From positions 1 to 64,000 of the forward strand of contig JAHBWH010000009.1 of the NCBI GenBank assembly GCA_019637115.1: 64,000 nt of DNA, given 5' to 3'. Position numbers and translations under genes: made by a program. Source of the stretch: Myxococcales bacterium (GTDB taxonomy: Bacteria > Myxococcota_A > Polyangia > Polyangiales > Houyiibacteriaceae). This document shows, one piece after another, positions 31,717 through 41,120 of this stretch. The notes beneath the pieces were generated by a model. The model was not told the origin of the DNA. It saw only the letters and a program-made list of their open reading frames with translations, and made no database searches. Within the stretch, counting starts at the first letter, position 1, and each line of letters opens with the position of its first letter.

Positions 31717-32613
31717 TCAGATCTCGGAGGTCGGGTAGTGCACCCAGGGCGCCCGGCGTAGCCGAGAGGGGCCACGCCACGGGTGGGAGAACGCGAGGAT
31801 CGTGCACGTGCCGCCCGGTCGCACGCCACGGCTCGCGAGCCAGGCGTGGGCGTCTTCGAGGCGTTCGTCGATCGCGAAGCACGCGAGCTCGTCGTCGGCG
31901 AGCGCGTGGGCTCCCTCGCGCAGGCGCGCGCCGAGGCCAGGCGTCCACTCCGCCGGGCTCCACGGGAGGTGGACGAGGGGCCAGGGGGCGCCGCTCGAGA
32001 CGAGGCGAAACTCCTTGGTGCCGACGTTGCGCACGACGGAGGGGCGGGGCCCGGGTCGACCGAGATCCACGCCCTCGGCGAGGGGACCGGGGCCGTCGTC
32101 GAGCCCGCGCAGCCGCGCGGGTGGCTCGAAGAAGACCGAGAGCACCGCGAGCGGCGAGGCCATGCGCCCAGGGTGCTGGCCGCGAAACGTCTCTCGGAGG
32201 TCGCCGCGCTCGCCGCGCATCGCGGCGCCGAAGGCGAGGTCCCAGCGGGGCAGCGCAGAGCCGAAGAAGGCGAGACGGAAGCCGCTGATGAAGAGCTTCC
32301 GCGCGACGCCCTGGCCGCGCGCCTCAGGCGCGAGCTTGAGGTCCCCTCCGTAGAAGACCGAGAAGACGCGGCCGTCGACCGGGCGCGCCTCGCGCACCGC
32401 CGCCGCGCAGATGCCGACGAGCCGCTCCCCCTCGAAGCCGACGAGGAAGCGCGCGTGCCCGAGCCCTTCGAAGAACGCCGCGTAGCGCGGGCCGTGATCG
32501 ACGAAGAAGCGATCCTCCGAGAGCGGATACGTGATGCCATCTTCGATCTCGCGCAGCCGCGCCGCGTGCTGCTGCACCGCGTCGCCGTCCATCACCTGGA
32601 AGCGGACCTTCAC
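31717..32613 (-). CDS. GNAT-like acyltransferase
   Basis: About 298 residues: VRFQVMDGD start, a GNAT-like core with LVGFEGERLVGICAAAV followed by LKLAPEARGQGVARKLFI, which resembles the acetyl-CoA binding motif A, and an unusual C-terminal domain of about 130 residues. The GTG at 32613 forms a GTGA overlap with a micro-ORF that itself overlaps the upstream BtaA-like gene. The open frame runs further upstream to 32970 through the 36-bp repeat array, so a longer N-terminus with DVDARVEGVGVA repeats cannot be excluded. Confidence 0.65.
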   Translation of the reverse strand: MKVRFQVMDGDAVQQHAARLREIEDGITYPLSEDRFFVDHGPRYAAFFEGLGHARFLVGFEGERLVGICAAAVREARPVDGRVFSVFYGGDLKLAPEARGQGVARKLFISGFRLAFFGSALPRWDLAFGAAMRGERGDLRETFRGQHPGRMASPLAVLSVFFEPPARLRGLDDGPGPLAEGVDLGRPGPRPSVVRNVGTKEFRLVSSGAPWPLVHLPWSPAEWTPGLGARLREGAHALADDELACFAIDERLEDAHAWLASRGVRPGGTCTILAFSHPWRGPSRLRRAPWVHYPTSEI

Positions 32614-32879
32614 GCGCGTCGATCCTTGCGCCCGCGCGGCGCGACACGCGGCGTCCACGTCGGCCACGGCATCGGCGTCCACGTCGGCCACGCCGACGCC
32701 CTCCACGTCGGCCACGCCGACGCCCTCCACGTCGGCGTCCACGTCGGCCACGCCGACGCCCTCCACGCGGGCGTCCACGTCGGCCACTCCGACGCCCTCC
32801 ACGCGGGCGTCCACGTCGTCCGCATCAGCCAGGCCGACGTCCTCCCCGACGGCCGCGGCGCGCGCGACGTCGACCTCAT
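32610..32879 (-). CDS. Repeat-encoded micro-ORF (WPTWTP repeats), doubly overlapping
   Basis: An 89-codon ORF starting ATGA-overlapped with the stop of the BtaA-like gene (32876) and ending GTGA-overlapped with the GTG of the acyltransferase (32613). Its product consists mostly of repeats such as AWRASAWPTWTP from the 36-bp array. The precise 4-nt overlaps on both sides look like translational coupling, but the composition suggests it may be only a ribosome pass-through or a frame left by repeat expansion in the acyltransferase gene. Confidence 0.35.
   Translation of the reverse strand: MRSTSRAPRPSGRTSAWLMRTTWTPAWRASEWPTWTPAWRASAWPTWTPTWRASAWPTWRASAWPTWTPMPWPTWTPRVAPRGRKDRRA
32650..32825. 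repeat. Degenerate 36-bp tandem repeat array
   Basis: Units based on GCGTCCACGTCGGCCACGCC followed by GACGCCCTCCAC, four to five copies with internal partial units, at the junction of the acyltransferase and BtaA-like genes. Confidence 0.8.
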
Positions 32880-33802
32880 CGGCGCACCGCGACGGTGACG
32901 CGCTCGTAGAAGAGGCTGCGGTCGCGCGCGAGCAGGCCCTCGCCGAGCGCCTCGTCGACCGCGAAGCCATCGAGGAAGTCCGCGAGCGCGCGCTGGTTGT
33001 TGAGCTGCCGGATCGTCACCGCCGCGCCGGGCCTCAGCGCGTGGAGGGCCCGCCCCCAGCGCGCGACGGTCGCGTCGGTCGACCAATCGAAGATGTTCGA
33101 GAGGTGGACGAGATCGAAGCGGTCGAGCCCCGCGACGTCGGGCAGCTCGCCGTGGGTCACGTCGAAGTCGAAGCGACGCCGCGCGCGGAGGTGGGGGAAG
33201 GCGTCGCGGCCGAGGTAGCGGCCGAGGAGGACGTGCTGCAGGAAGGGGTTCGACGGTCCGTCCGAGCGCGCGAGCCCGAGCTCGAAGCGCCGCCGGAAGT
33301 AGGCCGGGTACGAGCCTGGCGTGGCGTGCTGCACGGCGTCGGGGCCGAACATCGCGACCAGCAAGGTCTCGGTGAACGTCGCCTCGAAGACCGCCGGCCA
33401 ATAGCGGTGCGTCATCCAGGCGCGCGCGCGCGAGCGGTCACCCGCGAAGTACGCCTCGCGCTCGTCCGCGTCGGCGACGAGCGCGCCCATCGCCTCCCGC
33501 ATCACCTCGAAGAGGCGCTCGAAGGCGCCGCATTGCGAGAGCCCCTCGCGGCGGTCGTCGTCGACGTTCAACGCCGCGAGCTCCCCGGCCGCGATGGCGT
33601 CCGCCTTGCGCTCGACGTGCGCCAGCTGATGAGGGTTCGCGTCGTAGAGCGAGAGCTTCACGTCGGGGAGCGCGTGGGCCATCGCGAACGCCGTGCATCC
33701 CCCGGACGCCACGAGCAGCACCCGGCGCGCGCCGAGCCGCCGCGCGACCTCGATCTCGATCTCGGGATCTTCGCGGACCACCGCGAACTTCAGCTCGTCC
33801 AT
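32876..33802 (-). CDS. DUF3419/BtaA-like SAM-dependent aminocarboxypropyltransferase
   Basis: 308 residues, no signal peptide. RVLLVASGGCTAFAMA and LSLYDANPHQLAHVERK form a SAM-binding motif and the acidic loop typical of DUF3419, the family of BtaA, which transfers the 3-amino-3-carboxypropyl group of SAM to diacylglycerol in betaine-lipid synthesis. ...VHLSNIFDW and RQLNNQR near the end are also family-like. No BtaB methyltransferase is adjacent; a GNAT-like enzyme is, so the lipid headgroup may be acylated instead of methylated (inference). TATCCT lies 9 nt before the ATG. Confidence 0.75.
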   Translation of the reverse strand: MDELKFAVVREDPEIEIEVARRLGARRVLLVASGGCTAFAMAHALPDVKLSLYDANPHQLAHVERKADAIAAGELAALNVDDDRREGLSQCGAFERLFEVMREAMGALVADADEREAYFAGDRSRARAWMTHRYWPAVFEATFTETLLVAMFGPDAVQHATPGSYPAYFRRRFELGLARSDGPSNPFLQHVLLGRYLGRDAFPHLRARRRFDFDVTHGELPDVAGLDRFDLVHLSNIFDWSTDATVARWGRALHALRPGAAVTIRQLNNQRALADFLDGFAVDEALGEGLLARDRSLFYERVTVAVRR

Positions 33803-33905: not shown

Positions 33906-35606
33906 ATGATGAGCGGGATGTCGTCGCTGCCGCCGATGGGGAGCGCGGTGCCGAGCACCGTGGCGAGCCTCTTTGTGTCGAACGCCCGCGTCCGGCCGGA
34001 CGCGCTGGCCGTCGCGGACGCGCGCGTCTCGTGGACCTATGGGGAGTTGCTGGTGCGGGTCCAGCGCCTCGCGGCGTGTCTGCGCGCTTGCGGAGTCGAC
34101 CCCGGAGACCGCGTCGCGGTGCTCTCGCGCAACCGCGCGGAGTACCTCGAGGCCTTTCTCGCGAGCGCGTGGATCGGCGCCATCGTGGCGTGCCAGAACT
34201 GGCGACTGGCCGACGCCGAGCTCGCGCATTGTCTCGACCTCGTCGAGCCGAAGCTCCTGCTCGCGTCGCCGGACGAGGCGCCCCGGCTGGCCACGCGAGG
34301 CGAGCCGACGCTCGTCTTCGGTGAGGCGTACGAGCGCGCGCTCGAGGAGGCGAGCCCGAGCGCGCTGCGCCCGCCGTCTCGCGCGTGGCGAGATTCGCAC
34401 GTCGGCCGACGCGCCGACGATCCGGCGTTCGACGATCCGGCGTCCGACGATCCAGCGTCCGACGACCCAGCGTCCGACGACCCAGCAGGCGGAGATCCGC
34501 GCCTCCACCCCTTCCCGCTCGACCCCGAGACGCCGCTGCTGATCCTCTACACGAGCGGCACGACGGGCTTGCCGAAGGGCGCGGTCGTCAGCCACCGCGC
34601 CGAGATCGCCCGCAACCTGGTGCTGCGCGCGGAGTTCGGCATCGCGGCCGCAGACGCGTACGTCGCGTGGAGCCCGCTCTACCACATGGGCGGCGCCGAG
34701 TATTCGCTCGGCACCTTGATGAGCGGCGGCGCCGTGCACGTCGTCGACGGCTTCGACGCCGAGCGGCTCGCGGACCTGGCCGAGGCGCACGCCATCGGGT
34801 GGCTGCTCCTGATGCCCGGCATGGTCGGCCGCTTCGCGGACCTGCTCGAGTCGCGCCGCGGGTGGAGGCCGCGCGGCGTGAAGGTCTGCGGCGTGATGGC
34901 GGACCTCGTGCCCCCCGCGGACATCGCGCGCATCACGCGGCTGCTCGGCGCTCCCTACGCCAACACCTTCGGCGCGACCGAGACCGGCTGCCCGCCCTGC
35001 TCGTCGAGCCTGCTCCCGATCGGTGTCGAGCCCGAGCGGCTCTCGAAGGAGCAGAGCCCCTTCTGCGAGGTCCGCCTCGTCGACGAGCACGACCGCGACG
35101 TCCCGATCGGCACCCCCGGCGAGCTGTGCATGCGCGGGCCGACGCTCTTCAGCGGCTATTGGCGCGCCCCCGACGTCAACGAGGAAGACTTCCGCGGCGG
35201 GTGGTTCCACATGGGGGACGTCTTCGTCCGTAACCCAGATGGGACCCTCGACTTCGTCGACCGGCGGAAGTACCTGATCAAGTCGGGGGGTGAGAACATC
35301 TATCCGGCGGAGATCGAGCGGGTGCTCCTGCACGAGCCCGGCGTGGCCGAGGCCGCGGTCGTACGTCGCGCCGATCCGACGTGGGGCGAGGTGCCCATCG
35401 CGTTCGTCGCGCGCGCGAGCGACGACGCGGGCGACGAGGTGACGGCCGAGGCGCTGATCGAGGCCTGCCGCGCTCGGCTCGCGAGCTACAAGAAGCCCCG
35501 CGACGTGATCTTCCTCGCGTACGAGGACTTCCCGCGCAGCGCCTCGGGCAAGGTGCTCCGGCACGAGCTCGAGGCCCGCGCGGCCGCCCCGAAGGAGCCC
35601 GCATGA
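33906..35606 (+). CDS. AMP-dependent acyl-CoA synthetase
   Basis: 566 residues of the ANL superfamily: P-loop TSGTTGLPKGAVVSH, A5-type motif FGATETG, YWRAPD, A8 hinge region DRRKYLIKSGGENIYPAEIE and the catalytic Lys in SASGKVLRHE. It would activate a carboxylic acid as acyl-AMP and then the CoA thioester. A stretch of five DDPAS/DDPAF repeats (about 170-195) interrupts the N-terminal domain, from a 15-bp tandem repeat. It is the first gene of a five-gene catabolic operon. Start is ATG 33906 or the ATG at 33918, which has TAGGAT 10 nt before it. Confidence 0.9.
   Translation: MMSGMSSLPPMGSAVPSTVASLFVSNARVRPDALAVADARVSWTYGELLVRVQRLAACLRACGVDPGDRVAVLSRNRAEYLEAFLASAWIGAIVACQNWRLADAELAHCLDLVEPKLLLASPDEAPRLATRGEPTLVFGEAYERALEEASPSALRPPSRAWRDSHVGRRADDPAFDDPASDDPASDDPASDDPAGGDPRLHPFPLDPETPLLILYTSGTTGLPKGAVVSHRAEIARNLVLRAEFGIAAADAYVAWSPLYHMGGAEYSLGTLMSGGAVHVVDGFDAERLADLAEAHAIGWLLLMPGMVGRFADLLESRRGWRPRGVKVCGVMADLVPPADIARITRLLGAPYANTFGATETGCPPCSSSLLPIGVEPERLSKEQSPFCEVRLVDEHDRDVPIGTPGELCMRGPTLFSGYWRAPDVNEEDFRGGWFHMGDVFVRNPDGTLDFVDRRKYLIKSGGENIYPAEIERVLLHEPGVAEAAVVRRADPTWGEVPIAFVARASDDAGDEVTAEALIEACRARLASYKKPRDVIFLAYEDFPRSASGKVLRHELEARAAAPKEPA
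34416..34490. repeat. 15-bp tandem repeat inside the acyl-CoA synthetase gene
   Basis: Five units of GACGATCCGGCGTTC-type sequence, in frame, encoding DDPAF/DDPAS repeats. Confidence 0.85.
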
Positions 35607-36454
35607 AGCCGACGACGTCGCTCTGTCACGCCACCGCCGACGACGTCGTCGTCCACGGTCGCAGCTTGCCCCGCGAGCTCATCGGCAAGCGCAGCTTCAC
35701 CGAGATGATCTTCCTGCACCTCACGGGCGCCGAGCCGACGCCCGCGCAGGCCGCCGTGCTCGACGCGTGCCTCGTGACGCTGATGGAGCACGGCCTGACG
35801 CCGACGGCGGTGAGCACGCGCCTCACCTACGGCAGCGCGCCGGAGGCCATGCAGGGCGCCATCGCCGCGGGCCTCTTGAGCGTGGGCAGCACCTTCGTCG
35901 GCACCACCGAGGGCTGCGCGGCGCTCCTCGCGCGGATCGTCCGCGCGAGCGATCCGGACGCCGAGGCCGCGCGTGTCGCGCGCGAGAGCCGCGAGACGAA
36001 GGCGCGCCTGCCCGGCTTCGGCCACCCGCTGCATCGCCCGGTCGATCCGCGGACCGTCGCCCTGCTCGCGCTCGCGCGCGCCGAGGGGCTCTTCGGCGCA
36101 CACTGCGAGGCGCTCGAGCGGCTCTCTGCCGCGGTCGACGAGGGCGCGGGGCGGGCGATCCCCGTCAACGCGACGGGCGCCATCGCCGCCGTCCTCCTCG
36201 ACGCGGGCGTCCCCGCCGAGATCTTGCGCGGCGTCGCGCTCATCAGCCGCTGCGCCGGGCTCGTCGGCCACGTCCGCGAAGAGCAGACGAAGCCCTCGAT
36301 GCGCGCGCTCTGGGAGGGCGCCGAGGCCGCCGTGCCCTACGTCGCCGACCCCCATGCCGCCGGCCGCCACGCCGCTGGCCCGCATGCTGCCGTCGCGCCG
36401 CCCAACGACGACGCTCCGAACGCCACCACACGACCCGCCGAGGAGGAGACATGA
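35603..36454 (+). CDS. Citryl-CoA lyase-like (citrate synthase superfamily) protein
   Basis: 283 residues, shorter than citrate synthase. LIGKRSFTEMIFLHLTG, the LTYGSAPEAMQGAIAAGLL segment, GFGHPLHRPVDPRT with the conserved His region, and ATGAIAAVLLD match the citryl-CoA lyase/CcsA-like subgroup of the citrate synthase superfamily, which splits or forms C-C bonds of CoA esters. The C-terminus is a low-complexity His/Ala-rich tail. It overlaps the acyl-CoA synthetase stop by ATGA, so it probably handles the CoA ester made by that enzyme. Confidence 0.8.
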   Translation: MKPTTSLCHATADDVVVHGRSLPRELIGKRSFTEMIFLHLTGAEPTPAQAAVLDACLVTLMEHGLTPTAVSTRLTYGSAPEAMQGAIAAGLLSVGSTFVGTTEGCAALLARIVRASDPDAEAARVARESRETKARLPGFGHPLHRPVDPRTVALLALARAEGLFGAHCEALERLSAAVDEGAGRAIPVNATGAIAAVLLDAGVPAEILRGVALISRCAGLVGHVREEQTKPSMRALWEGAEAAVPYVADPHAAGRHAAGPHAAVAPPNDDAPNATTRPAEEET

Positions 36455-36987
36455 AACCTGCGACCCACCGCCCCACGGGAATCCAGGGGCTCCACCACAA
36501 CGCCTACCGCTGCCGCGACTCGGAAGAGACGCGCGAGTTCTACGAGGACTTCCTCGGCTTGCCGCTCACCGTCACCCTCGAGCTCGGCGCGACGAAGACG
36601 GGGCGCTCCTGCCAGCACCTCCACACCTTCTACCAGATGGACGACGGCAGCTTCCTCGCCTTCTTCGAGGCGCCGGACATGCCCTTCGAGTTCGAGGATC
36701 ACCACGACTTCGACCTGCACATCGCGCTCGAGGTCGAGCACGAGCACATGCTCGCGATGAAGGAGAAGGGGGAGCGCCTCGGCATGGAGGTCCGTGGGAT
36801 CTCGGACCACGGCTTCATCGACTCGATCTACTTCCGTGACCCCAACGGCTACGTGATCGAGCTGACGAGCCGCAAGCGGAACCACGACGAGGCCACCGAC
36901 CCCTCGCAGAACCGGGCGCGCGAGAAGCTCGCGGCGTGGCAGCGGACGAAGCGCGCCGCGAACGACACGCACGCCGAGAGCGCGTGA
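36451..36987 (+). CDS. VOC-family protein (glyoxalase/dioxygenase fold)
   Basis: 178 residues with paired beta-alpha-beta modules: LHHNAYRCRDSEETREFYEDFLGLPL at the start and SIYFRDPNGYVIELT near the end. His (LHHN), His in DLHIALEV and Glu in YVIELT are in the usual metal-ligand places. VOC enzymes in aromatic catabolism can be extradiol dioxygenases, isomerases or glyoxalase-like. ATGA overlap with the upstream gene; AGGAGG lies 5 nt before the start. A basic/acidic C-terminal tail follows the fold. Confidence 0.85.
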   Translation: MKPATHRPTGIQGLHHNAYRCRDSEETREFYEDFLGLPLTVTLELGATKTGRSCQHLHTFYQMDDGSFLAFFEAPDMPFEFEDHHDFDLHIALEVEHEHMLAMKEKGERLGMEVRGISDHGFIDSIYFRDPNGYVIELTSRKRNHDEATDPSQNRAREKLAAWQRTKRAANDTHAESA

Positions 36988-37184: not shown

Positions 37185-37871
37185 ATGACCATCCACCTGC
37201 ACATGCTCCCGCCCAGCGTGAACAACCTCTGCGTGCGCGTCTTCCTGCGCGCCGCGGGCCTGCCCTACGAGGAAGAGAACGCCTGGGGCAAGACCCGATC
37301 GCCCGAGTTCATGGCGAAGATCCCCGCGCACCTCACCCCCGCGATCGAGCTCGACGCGCACCCGCGCGGCGCGATGTGGGAGAGCTGCGCGATCATGATG
37401 TACCTCTCGAACCTCCACGGCCTCGAGAAGCTCTACCCGAAGGACCCCGGCCGGCGCGCGCTGGTCGACTCCGCGAATTTCTACCTGACGAGCACCCTCT
37501 ACCCGCTCGTCTCGCGCGCCACCTACCCGCGCCTCGGCTTCCCTTGCTACCCGGGCGAGGTCGCGGCGACCGAAGACGCCCCCGCCGCGCTCAAGGCGGA
37601 GGCCCGCCAGGCCGCCGAGGACGCGCTCGCCGAGCCGCTCGAGGTCTTCCGCTCGTACTTCGTGCGCGACGGCTTCATCGGTGACGGCGAGCACCCTTCC
37701 ATCGCCGACATCCGCTTGGCGGCGACGCTCGAGTTCCTCGCGATGAACGACACGCCCGTCCCGCAATGGGCGCAGGACTACCTCAAGCGCGTCGAGGCCG
37801 CGCTCGGGTCCGCCTACAGCGAGCCGGCCGCCGACGTCCGTGGCTTCGTCGCGCAGGTGAAGGCGGCCTGA
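37185..37871 (+). CDS. Glutathione S-transferase family protein
   Basis: 228 residues with an N-terminal thioredoxin-like half (LHMLPPSVNNLCVRVFLRAAGLPYEE, then LTPAIELD and the WESCAIMMYL segment carrying the Glu-Ser pair for glutathione) and a helical C-terminal half with HPSIADIRLAATLEFL. In an operon with a homogentisate-dioxygenase domain it could act as the maleylacetoacetate isomerase, although it lacks a clear zeta-class SSCX(W/H)RVRIAL motif. The start has a GGAG 8 nt upstream. The 197-bp gap before it contains a duplicated 20-bp CTCGGGCGAAGCCCC-type repeat (about 37098-37136). Confidence 0.8.
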   Translation: MTIHLHMLPPSVNNLCVRVFLRAAGLPYEEENAWGKTRSPEFMAKIPAHLTPAIELDAHPRGAMWESCAIMMYLSNLHGLEKLYPKDPGRRALVDSANFYLTSTLYPLVSRATYPRLGFPCYPGEVAATEDAPAALKAEARQAAEDALAEPLEVFRSYFVRDGFIGDGEHPSIADIRLAATLEFLAMNDTPVPQWAQDYLKRVEAALGSAYSEPAADVRGFVAQVKAA

Positions 37872-37874
37872 GCC

Positions 37875-40800
37875 ATGGAGACGCTCTCCCACGCGCCCGC
37901 GCGCGTCGTCTTCGGCGTCGGCGCGGAGGCCCACGTCGCGGCGCTCCTCGACGAGCTCGGCGCGCGCCGCGTGCTGCTCGTCGCGATGGCGCGCCACGCC
38001 GAGGGCGCCGAACGCATCGCGCGGGCGCTCGGAGAGCGTTCGGTCGGGGTGTTCACCACCGACCACCCTCAGGTCCCCGGAGACGTCGCCGACGCCGCCG
38101 TCCGGCGCGCCCGGGAGACGAACGCCGACTGGGTGGTGGCGCACGGCGGCGGCACCCCCATCGGCGTCGCCAAGGCCATCGCGCTCGAGCTCGGCGAGGG
38201 ATTGAGGGTGGGAGCGGTCCCGACCACCTACGCCGGCTCGGAGCGCACGAACATCTGGGGCATCACGCGCGACGGCGCGAAGAAGACCGGCCGCGAGGAG
38301 CGCGTGCGCCCGAGCCTCGTCGTCTACGACCCGACGCTCACGCTCGGCCTCGATCGCGAGCTCTCGCTGCAGAGCCTCTTCAACGCGATGGCCCACGCCC
38401 TCGAGGCCCTCTACGCGGACGACGCGACGGACGATGCGCGTGGCGCGGCCGAAGCGAGCCTCCGGCCGCTCGTCGAGGGCGCCCGCGCCATCGCCGCGGA
38501 TCCGAGCGATCTCGAGGGCCGGACCGAGGCGCTGCGCGGCGCGGCGCTCGCCTCGGCGGCGCTCGGCGCCGCTGGCATGGCGCTCCACCACAAGCTCGCG
38601 CACGTGCTGGGCGGGAGCTTCGGCACGCCGCACGCGGCGACCCACGCGACGCTCCTGCCCTACACCTTCGGCTTCAACGCTCCTGCCGCCCCCGAGGCGC
38701 TCGCCGCCGCGCGGCGCGCCTTCGGCACGGACGACCCGCCAGCGTTCCTCTACGACCTGCAGCGCGCGCTCGGCCTCTCCACCTCGCTGCGCGCGCTCGG
38801 CCTCGGCGAAGACGACCTCCCGGCGATCGCCGACGCCGTGCTCGAGGCGACGTATCCGAACCCGCGCGCGGTGGACCGCGAGGGCCTGCTCGCGTTGTTG
38901 AGCGACGCGCTGCACGACCGCCGCCCCTCGCTGCACACCCGCCGCATGTCGCTGCCGAGCGGCTGCGAGGGGCCGCACGCCACGCTCCCCGTCACCGTCC
39001 GAGGCGCGCCGATCGATCGCGCGCGCGTCATCGTGCTCGCGCTGCATGGTCGCGGCGCGAGCGCCGACCGCTTCGTCGCGGACCTCGAGCGCCGCCTCGG
39101 GCCGCGGGACGACGTCGCCTTCGTCGCCCCTCAGGCGCGCCACAACACGTGGTACCCCAAGGGCTTCCGCGCGCCGCTCGACGAGAACGCGCCCTTCCTC
39201 GAGAGCGCCCTCTCGGTGGTCGAGGCGCTCTACGCCGAGCTCGCGGGCCAGCGCGCGCCGACGGCCGAGGGAGGGCTGAGCCCATCGGAGACGGAGCTCG
39301 CCGCGAGGGTCGGTGACGCGCGCGTCATCCCCGTCGGCTTCTCGCAGGGCGCCTGCCTCCTGCTCACCTGGCTCTCGCGCACGAAGGCGCGCCCACAGCA
39401 GGCGCTCGCGTTCACCGGCGCGCACACGCCGCTGCCGGACGCCGACTTCGGCGCCGCGCGCGGGCTCCGCCTGCACCTCGGGAGCGCTGCGGGCGACCCG
39501 TGGATCGCCCGCGAGACCTTCGAGGAGGCCGTCGGGCGCTTCCGCGAGGCCGGCGCAGAGGTGGACGCGACGCTCGTGCCCGGAGACACCCACGGCATCC
39601 ACCGCCCCGACGAAGACGCGCTCCGCCGCGCCCTCGATCACGCCGCCATGAACGACCCCCTCGACTACCAAGCTGGCTTCGGCAACGCGCTCGCGTCCGA
39701 GGCCCGACCGGGCGCGCTCCCGCGCCACCAGAACAGCCCGCGTCGCGTGCCCTTCGGGCTGGTCGCCGAGCAGCTCAACGGCACGGGCTTCACCGTGAAG
39801 CGGGCCGAGAACCGCCGCACCTGGATGTACCGGCTTCGCCCGCAGATCCTCGACCGCGGCTTCCGCCCCCGCGCGCACGCGCGCTTCGTCGGTGACTTCC
39901 ACGAGGCGGTGCCCTTCCCCGAGCACCTCGGCTTCTCGCCCCTGCCGATCCCCGAGGCGCCGACCGATTTCCTCGCGGGGCTCACCACCTTCGCAGGCGC
40001 GGGCGACGCCTCGATGCGCCGCGGCGCCGCCATCCACCTCTACGCCGCGAACGCGAACATGGGCCGTGTGGCCTTCTGCGACGTCGATGGCGACCTCTGC
40101 GTCGTGCCCGAGCGCGGCCGCCTGCACGTCCGCACCGAGCTCGGCCGCCTCAACGTCCTGCCGGGTGAGCTCGTGATCCTCCCGCGCGGGATCCGCTTCA
40201 CCGTCGAGGTCCCCGACGGGCAGGCCCGCGGCTTCGTCGCGGAGCTCTTCGACGGACATTTCACGCTCCCCGAGCGTGGCCCCATCGGCGCCAACGGCCT
40301 CGCCGACGAGCGCCACTTCCTCGCCCCCGTCGCTTCCTTCGAGGACGACGCGCAGCCGTGGACGATCGTCGTGCGCCAGGGCGGGCGCCTCTGGGAGATC
40401 GAGTCGCCGCACTCCCCCTTCGACGTGGTCGCGTGGCACGGGAGCTACGCGCCCTTCAAGTACGCGCTCGAGCGCTTCAACAGCCTCGGGAGCGTGAGCT
40501 TCGACCACCCGGACCCGTCGATCCTCACCGTGCTCACGAGCCCGTTGGACGCCCACGGCCGCAACGCGATCGACGTCGCCGTCTTCCGCAGCCGCTGGGA
40601 CGTCTCGCAGCACACCTTCCGCCCGCCCTACTACCACCGCAACTCGGCGATCGAGCTGAACGGCGTGATCTCGAGCCCGGCGGGCAGCCGCTGGGCGCCC
40701 GGCTCGTTCACCTTCACGCCCTACCTCACCCCCCACGGCATCGCGACCGCCAGCTACGAGGCCACGGTCGGCGCCGACGACGAAGCGGCAGACCGTCCCG

Positions 40801-40943
40801 AGCGCATCCCCGAGGACTCCCTCTGGATCCAGTTCGAGAGCACCTATCTTCTGAAGGTCATGCCCTGGATGCTCGACCACCCCTCGCGCGACCACGCATT
40901 CCTGGAGCGCTTCTCGGGCTTCGAGCGCCGCGAGCCGCTCTGA
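37875..40943 (+). CDS. Triple fusion: maleylacetate reductase + alpha/beta esterase + homogentisate 1,2-dioxygenase
   Basis: A 1022-residue protein read through one uninterrupted frame. Residues 1-355 match maleylacetate reductase (iron alcohol dehydrogenase fold): VVFGVGAEA, PTTYAGSERTNIWG, HHKLAHVLGG.FGTPHA. Residues about 358-590 are an alpha/beta hydrolase of the phospholipase/carboxylesterase type: LALHGRGASADRF, nucleophile S490 in GFSQG, and a His in DTHGIH (573 or 576). Residues 592-1022 match homogentisate 1,2-dioxygenase with H855 (WHGSYAPFKY), H921 and E927 (YYHRNSAIE) and H954 (TPHG), so the known iron ligands and active-site His are kept. It begins 3 nt after the GST stop. Ring cleavage, hydrolysis and reduction may be channelled. 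A missed frameshift cannot produce this, because all joins are in frame. Confidence 0.9.
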   Translation: METLSHAPARVVFGVGAEAHVAALLDELGARRVLLVAMARHAEGAERIARALGERSVGVFTTDHPQVPGDVADAAVRRARETNADWVVAHGGGTPIGVAKAIALELGEGLRVGAVPTTYAGSERTNIWGITRDGAKKTGREERVRPSLVVYDPTLTLGLDRELSLQSLFNAMAHALEALYADDATDDARGAAEASLRPLVEGARAIAADPSDLEGRTEALRGAALASAALGAAGMALHHKLAHVLGGSFGTPHAATHATLLPYTFGFNAPAAPEALAAARRAFGTDDPPAFLYDLQRALGLSTSLRALGLGEDDLPAIADAVLEATYPNPRAVDREGLLALLSDALHDRRPSLHTRRMSLPSGCEGPHATLPVTVRGAPIDRARVIVLALHGRGASADRFVADLERRLGPRDDVAFVAPQARHNTWYPKGFRAPLDENAPFLESALSVVEALYAELAGQRAPTAEGGLSPSETELAARVGDARVIPVGFSQGACLLLTWLSRTKARPQQALAFTGAHTPLPDADFGAARGLRLHLGSAAGDPWIARETFEEAVGRFREAGAEVDATLVPGDTHGIHRPDEDALRRALDHAAMNDPLDYQAGFGNALASEARPGALPRHQNSPRRVPFGLVAEQLNGTGFTVKRAENRRTWMYRLRPQILDRGFRPRAHARFVGDFHEAVPFPEHLGFSPLPIPEAPTDFLAGLTTFAGAGDASMRRGAAIHLYAANANMGRVAFCDVDGDLCVVPERGRLHVRTELGRLNVLPGELVILPRGIRFTVEVPDGQARGFVAELFDGHFTLPERGPIGANGLADERHFLAPVASFEDDAQPWTIVVRQGGRLWEIESPHSPFDVVAWHGSYAPFKYALERFNSLGSVSFDHPDPSILTVLTSPLDAHGRNAIDVAVFRSRWDVSQHTFRPPYYHRNSAIELNGVISSPAGSRWAPGSFTFTPYLTPHGIATASYEATVGADDEAADRPERIPEDSLWIQFESTYLLKVMPWMLDHPSRDHAFLERFSGFERREPL

Positions 40944-40989: not shown

Positions 40990-41120
40990 CTGGGGTCGGC
41001 GCCACCGACATGGAGTGCGGGAGAGCGACCGCGTGTCGAGTCGGCGGACGTCGGCGCCTCGAGGACGCCGCCTCGAGGACGCCGCCTCGCGGACGCCGCC
41101 TCGAAGACGCCACCGCGAGG
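40990..41120. repeat. 15-bp degenerate tandem repeat (CGAGGACGCCGCCTC)
   Basis: Several near copies between about 41055 and 41120, in the 192-bp gap after the fusion gene and before the small lipoprotein. No gene is recognised in the gap. Confidence 0.6.

Follow-up and report, generated by a model that had tools for sequence, protein, structure and literature searches.

The closest described counterpart of the locus reported here is a fungal pathway. As reported for A. niger (PMC8336404), MhdA, a homologue of homogentisate 1,2-dioxygenase (HGD) that was purified and assayed, converts methoxyhydroquinone to 4-hydroxy-6-methoxy-6-oxohexa-2,4-dienoate. A maleylacetate reductase (MAR) homologue is proposed there as the reductase, and the carboxylesterase OmeA, whose gene adjoins mhdA, is proposed to catalyse the final step to 3-oxoadipate; deletion of omeA leads to accumulation of the reduced methyl ester (PMC8336404). 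Direct cleavage of methoxy- and dimethoxyhydroquinone is described for the MHQD enzyme of Phanerochaete (PMC12915361), and the FAMeDB article mentions an analogous bacterial pathway, citing Pseudomonas work (PMC13094099).

The window, that is, the whole 64,000-nucleotide stretch of Myxococcales DNA analysed here, contains on its plus strand a gene (37875-40943) of 1022 codons uninterrupted by stops, whose product comprises, in order, a MAR part (residues 1-357; 37875-38945), a PF02230-type esterase part (residues 358-591; 38946-39647) and an HGD-like cupin ring-cleavage dioxygenase part (residues 592-1022; 39648-40940). Pfam models matched above their cut-offs at residues 8-153 (Fe-ADH), 168-345 (ADH_Fe_C), 598-865 (HgmA_N) and 867-1018 (HgmA_C), and GC3 is even across the three parts (0.947, 0.940 and 0.951). 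The DNA is GC-rich and the reverse frame of the gene is likewise open, over 1023 codons, so openness alone is little proof; the proof comes from conservation. Among 57 relatives and 377 genomes of the phylum, two samples that overlap, the complete MAR-esterase-HGD order was found in one open frame in 13 genomes (G000, which is the window's own, and G003, G009, G015, G039, G121, G241, G249, G286, G352, G364, G388 and G389), genes in the relatives' genomes being called by a script on reading frame length and GC3 rather than by a gene finder. Invariant in all 13 full fusions are T118, K136, H243 and H253 of the MAR part, S490, D541 and H573 of the esterase part, and H878, H921, E927 and H954 of the dioxygenase part. 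An assembly or frameshift error joining three adjacent genes would be in line with the relatives in which the parts are neighbouring genes: in G253 MAR and esterase are fused and the HGD is separate, and in G186 and G332 MAR and HGD lie side by side. Such an error is nevertheless ruled out, its likelihood being close to nil, by the full frame in 13 separately assembled genomes, down to about 40% identity. Given intact fusions from so many separate assemblies, the separated parts are read as a history of fusion and splitting. The conserved three-enzyme fusion is real. The preliminary description had recognised a single 1022-residue protein with MAR, esterase and HGD-family parts, which the reading frame, Pfam, phmmer and the conserved order confirm, and had placed H921, E927, H954 and S490 correctly; the stops between parts, or separate proteins in close relatives, that it had listed as signs of an assembly error were looked for and did not stand up against the 13 full frames. 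A structure model of the full-length protein was poor (pTM 0.42, mean pLDDT 63) and is left out of the argument. As MARs form dimers and HGDs hexamers, the fusion could build a joint assembly.

Other arrangements also occur. Six genomes (G006, G038, G045, G158, G285 and G374) encode MAR-HGD two-part fusions, around which no esterase was found within the fetched stretches, suggesting that the ester step is not obligatory. G046 has MAR-esterase only and G360 HGD only, and the fusion type is cut by contig ends in G059, G053 and G392, the last being a contig-edge esterase-HGD locus. Two candidates per genome were scored in the survey of the 377 genomes, in which second copies may therefore be missed. 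The three-part label switches seven times on the HGD tree of 58 rows (see below), suggesting either repeated fusions and splits or repeated gain and loss of the esterase. In a search reaching beyond the phylum, which had at least 598 matches, the 80 best included one other full-length three-part fusion (L043), and it lies on the same contig as that of G121, which matches record SBGP01000104.1, placed in Myxococcota; coverage of 80% of the query was reached in none of the 72,556 plasmid records. As a separate observation, G034 carries an HGD-like gene (L039 9121-10659) with the fusion-type active-site motif, neither MAR nor esterase being detected nearby.

In a phmmer search of the PDB, the MAR part matched the solved MARs 3w5s (233.7 bits) and 3hl0 (227.4 bits); its top match was 3jzd (292.6 bits), an entry named iron-containing alcohol dehydrogenase, and the best match outside the four top MAR-like chains reached about 90 bits. 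By these matches it belongs to the Fe-ADH family, with MARs as its closest solved relatives. The esterase part of the window protein is a weak match to Abhydrolase_2 (PF02230; residues 474-575, 20.4 bits for a cut-off of 23). The domain search suggested in the preliminary description supports the MAR and HGD parts in the window protein itself and the esterase clearly in the further full fusions scanned with Pfam, G003, G009, G039 and G015 (34.9, 41.1, 54.4 and 38.5 bits, respectively). The part also matches the solved carboxylesterase 4h0c (phmmer, E 1e-22) and contains a GFSQG motif and a putative catalytic triad, S490, D541 and H573, to which family membership would assign this role.

Relatives of the esterase part point to its partners. 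Fifty plasmid records contained one, and in all 15 of those opened, picked for differing organisms, a VOC-family dioxygenase gene accompanies the esterase type, adjacent to it, fused to it or, in the LinE operon, two genes off. MAR is also present in four of the 15 (Deinococcus D7000, D. ficus, P. chlorophenolicus A6 and Agrobacterium LN-1). The P. chlorophenolicus A6 gene row reads FAD monooxygenase, VOC, phospholipase (the esterase), YceI, MAR, 3-oxoadipyl-CoA thiolase-like and CoA-transferase A and B. On the D. ficus and D. deserti plasmids, VOC and esterase form one protein according to Pfam. Proteins of about 550 residues were seen on Deinococcus plasmids at L164 4975-6648, L190 2957-4612 and L200 2969-4639, and Pfam runs on the first two showed a VOC domain fused to the esterase type. 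The association in 15 of 15 records suggests that this esterase type partners a ring-cleaving dioxygenase, often together with MAR, whatever the fold of the dioxygenase. Following the annotation of LinE, we presume that the VOC proteins beside these esterases act on hydroquinones.

The dioxygenase part matches HGDs in the PDB (phmmer) and scores 444.9 bits with the hmgA model TIGR01015, under the curated cut-off of 510.75. We aligned 113 HGD domains with three PDB sequences (116 rows). Twenty-six rows are of the fusion type: 17 labelled three-part (the 13 full fusions, the contig-end loci G059, G053 and G392, and G253 with its HGD apart), six two-part and three separate. H921, E927 and H954 of the fusion align with the HGD iron ligands His331, Glu337 and His367, and the fusion-type rows keep these ligands together with His288, Arg332 and Asn333, with the exception of G392. 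In this fusion-type HGD, cut by the contig end (L159 6008-7678), Tyr replaces the third iron ligand, His367. In P. putida HGDO, homogentisate contacts Tyr346, which folds the lid loop over the site (PMC6337169). In that numbering, Tyr346 is missing from all 17 three-part, all six two-part and all three separate rows, that is, it occurs in 0 of 26 fusion-type domains versus 85 of 87 other HGDs (the two without it are L011, in G034, and L141, in G221). Lys349 and His361 are also lost in the fusion type, and Met339 is replaced by Asn in 25 of 26. Of the 116 aligned rows, 58 went into a tree: each fusion-type or PDB row, nine selected others and, from the remainder, every fourth row. In it, canonical HGDs, including those of human and P. 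putida, form a clade with 100/100 support, and the fusion type lies outside this clade. A model of the HGD domain (pLDDT 76.6) matches HGD structures at Z 42-43, which confirms the fold only. Tyr346 is likewise missing from PDB entry 9pz4, a chain of 496 residues that was deposited under the name homogentisate 1,2-dioxygenase. As a pointer to a methoxyhydroquinone enzyme it was set aside, since it was absent among the structure matches of the domain model and grouped weakly with human HGD in the tree; it remains a lead.

Judged from these sequence features, the dioxygenase part is probably not a homogentisate enzyme. A homogentisate route would nonetheless be chemically balanced on paper: HGD would yield maleylacetoacetate, a hydrolase would split it into maleylacetate and acetate by a retro-Claisen reaction, and MAR would give 3-oxoadipate. 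The own genome lends it some weight, as it encodes HPPD (358.6 bits; contig C374:42957-43940; L168, L180), and neither an HGD other than the fusion, of the long or the short type, nor a full-length FAH was found in the assembly; this is the main fact contrary to methoxyhydroquinone. The HPPD without a partner HGD may mean that homogentisate meets another fate, or that the fusion takes homogentisate. However, two PF01557 genes in the same genome could act as FAH, the esterase type belongs to operons of hydroquinone-kind ring-cleaving dioxygenases, and G009, G015 and G053 retain canonical HGD paralogues with the Tyr-Asp-Ala-Lys motif besides the fusion type. Together with the position outside the canonical clade and the loss of Tyr346 and its surrounding loop in all 26 fusion-type domains, this makes homogentisate an improbable substrate. 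The assignment of the third part to homogentisate in the preliminary description is accordingly not upheld, the HPPD without another HGD being what still speaks for it.

We propose instead, with a probability of about 0.52, that the fusion is a one-chain route from an alkoxyhydroquinone, most likely methoxyhydroquinone, to 3-oxoadipate. Lignin-type phenols would be the source of methoxyhydroquinone. The C-terminal HGD-like Fe(II) cupin would cleave the ring between an OH-bearing carbon and the adjacent alkoxy carbon to give a maleylacetate monoester, the esterase part would remove the alcohol, and the N-terminal MAR would reduce the C=C bond with NAD(P)H, before or after the esterase step; 3-oxoadipate would then pass to a 3-oxoacid CoA-transferase and a thiolase. 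The substrate, the reactions and their order are what we infer; the basis on which they are proposed is the fusion, its conservation, the intact residues in the three parts, the loss of Tyr346 and the link to CoA-transferase genes. Methoxyhydroquinone is favoured because the A. niger pathway uses the same three activities, which appear, by family, to be encoded together here. The idea put forward at the outset, of a route that hydrolyses and then reduces what ring cleavage yields, is supported by the three-enzyme chain and by a CoA-transferase pair in three genomes.

The same chain could also lead to the same product from a different substituted hydroquinone (hydroxyquinol, a chloro- or alkylhydroquinone, or a thioether adduct), the esterase acting on an activated acyl group, a lactone or a thioester, perhaps in quinone detoxification. 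Cleavage of hydroxyquinol or chlorohydroquinone leads directly to the MAR step, two-part MAR-HGD fusions exist without the esterase, and a glutathione S-transferase (GST) gene adjoins the fusion both here and in G121. The esterase type, moreover, accompanies VOC ring-cleaving dioxygenases of varied use, and its occurrence in the LinE operon counts against methoxyhydroquinone: the chlorinated substrates of LinE yield no methyl ester. Yet the esterase is in frame in all 13 full fusions, with its catalytic residues intact, which implies that an ester-type intermediate arises regularly, and the fungal three-enzyme set fits without extra assumptions, so that we regard another hydroquinone as rather unlikely, if clearly less so than homogentisate.

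Immediately behind the fusion in G121 and G059, and behind the HGD in G360, lie genes of the 3-oxoacid CoA-transferase (pcaI/pcaJ families), and this pairing in three genomes indicates 3-oxoadipate as the product. The G121 pair was assigned by tblastn to that of G059 (66.8 and 69.3% identity) and not by the pcaI/pcaJ family models; a closely related pair, 66 and 68% identical to that of G059, lies on a different contig of the window's own genome. Next to the fusion type, G003, G006, G053 and G286 have a sigma-54 regulator of the aromatic-sensing XylR_N/V4R type together with a pirin gene, and pirin was likewise seen in G186, G241, G332 and G360; the domains were checked in G003, the regulator of G286 is MobR-like, and the others were identified by tblastn. 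Together, CoA-transferase, regulator and pirin are in keeping with an aromatic pathway whose end product is 3-oxoadipate. Against the proposed route, no FAD monooxygenase like that of A6, such as would form methoxyhydroquinone, was found near any of 29 loci with one A6 query of weak sensitivity.

In the window, the fusion is the last gene of an apparent plus-strand operon that begins with an AMP-dependent acyl-CoA ligase (33906-35606; PF00501/PF13193), followed by a citryl-CoA lyase-type short citrate synthase (35603-36454; PF00285, and NF004868 at 315.2 bits for a cut-off of 193), a small protein of the VOC (glyoxalase/dioxygenase) superfamily (36451-36987; PF00903) and, directly upstream of the fusion, a GST-like protein (37185-37871; GST_N/GST_C). 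Ligase and lyase also occur at the fusions of G009, G121, G389 and G374, the small VOC gene at those of G009, G121 and G389, at the esterase-HGD locus of G392 and beside the MAR-esterase of G046, and a GST homologue at the G121 fusion and beside the G046 MAR-esterase. The methoxyhydroquinone pathway accounts for none of these four linked genes. In Sinorhizobium americanum, a citryl-CoA lyase, a VOC and a 60% identical GST gene lie together (L202 4225-7681), and no ring-cleavage gene was recognised nearby. Short repeats were also seen in the window: in-frame Asp-Asp-Pro-Ala-Ser units in the ligase gene (about 34385-34500), Val-Asp-Ala units (about 32600-32900) in a minus-strand reading frame (31717-32970), and short repeated units at 41060-41110, just downstream of the fusion gene.

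It is tempting, if still rather doubtful, to go one step further: the fusion may mark a family of bacterial alkoxyhydroquinone 1,2-dioxygenases related to HGD and standing apart from it, and may serve as a Rosetta stone by which the esterases of VOC operons, and MhqD by likeness, would be hydrolases of ring-cleavage monoesters, dioxygenases of two unrelated folds sharing one partner, and a single chain channelling every step from the ring to 3-oxoadipate. MhqD is taken by us to resemble, by family, the esterases of VOC ring-cleaving dioxygenase operons. If the proposed route is right, it would give bacteria a way to degrade methoxylated hydroquinones that bypasses O-demethylation, would provide a testable function for hydroquinone-operon esterases, and would correct a likely misannotation, since the family name would label the fusion-type HGD-like domains as homogentisate dioxygenases. 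A one-chain enzyme leading from the ring to 3-oxoadipate would also be useful for lignin conversion.

Several known systems share parts of this design. MAR fused to hydroxyquinol 1,2-dioxygenase is annotated in other organisms; such fusions likewise combine MAR with a ring-cleaving dioxygenase, which is however intradiol, and they have no esterase. The operons of P. chlorophenolicus A6 and of the Deinococcus and Agrobacterium LN-1 plasmids have the esterase type and MAR in common with the fusion, that of A6 also having 3-oxoadipate genes, and differ in that their VOC dioxygenase has an unrelated fold and that the genes are separate or only VOC and esterase are fused. HmgA (TIGR01015) shares with the dioxygenase part the fold and the residues H331, E337, H367, H288, R332 and N333, whereas the dioxygenase part lacks Tyr346, Lys349 and His361, scores under the family cut-off and lies in a separate clade. 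A report of a three-part MAR-esterase-HGD fusion was not found in the literature searched, most subscription papers being outside its reach. With the A. niger methoxyhydroquinone pathway, the fusion has in common HGD-family cleavage, MAR-type reduction, a carboxylesterase and 3-oxoadipate as the end point (PMC8336404). That pathway is made of three separate fungal proteins, whereas the fusion is a single bacterial polypeptide whose HGD-like domain, likened to MhdA by description, falls outside the canonical clade. The pathway is thus already known, and what is new, within the reach of our searches, is that one chain carries it, the order of the parts, and an HGD-like family standing apart.
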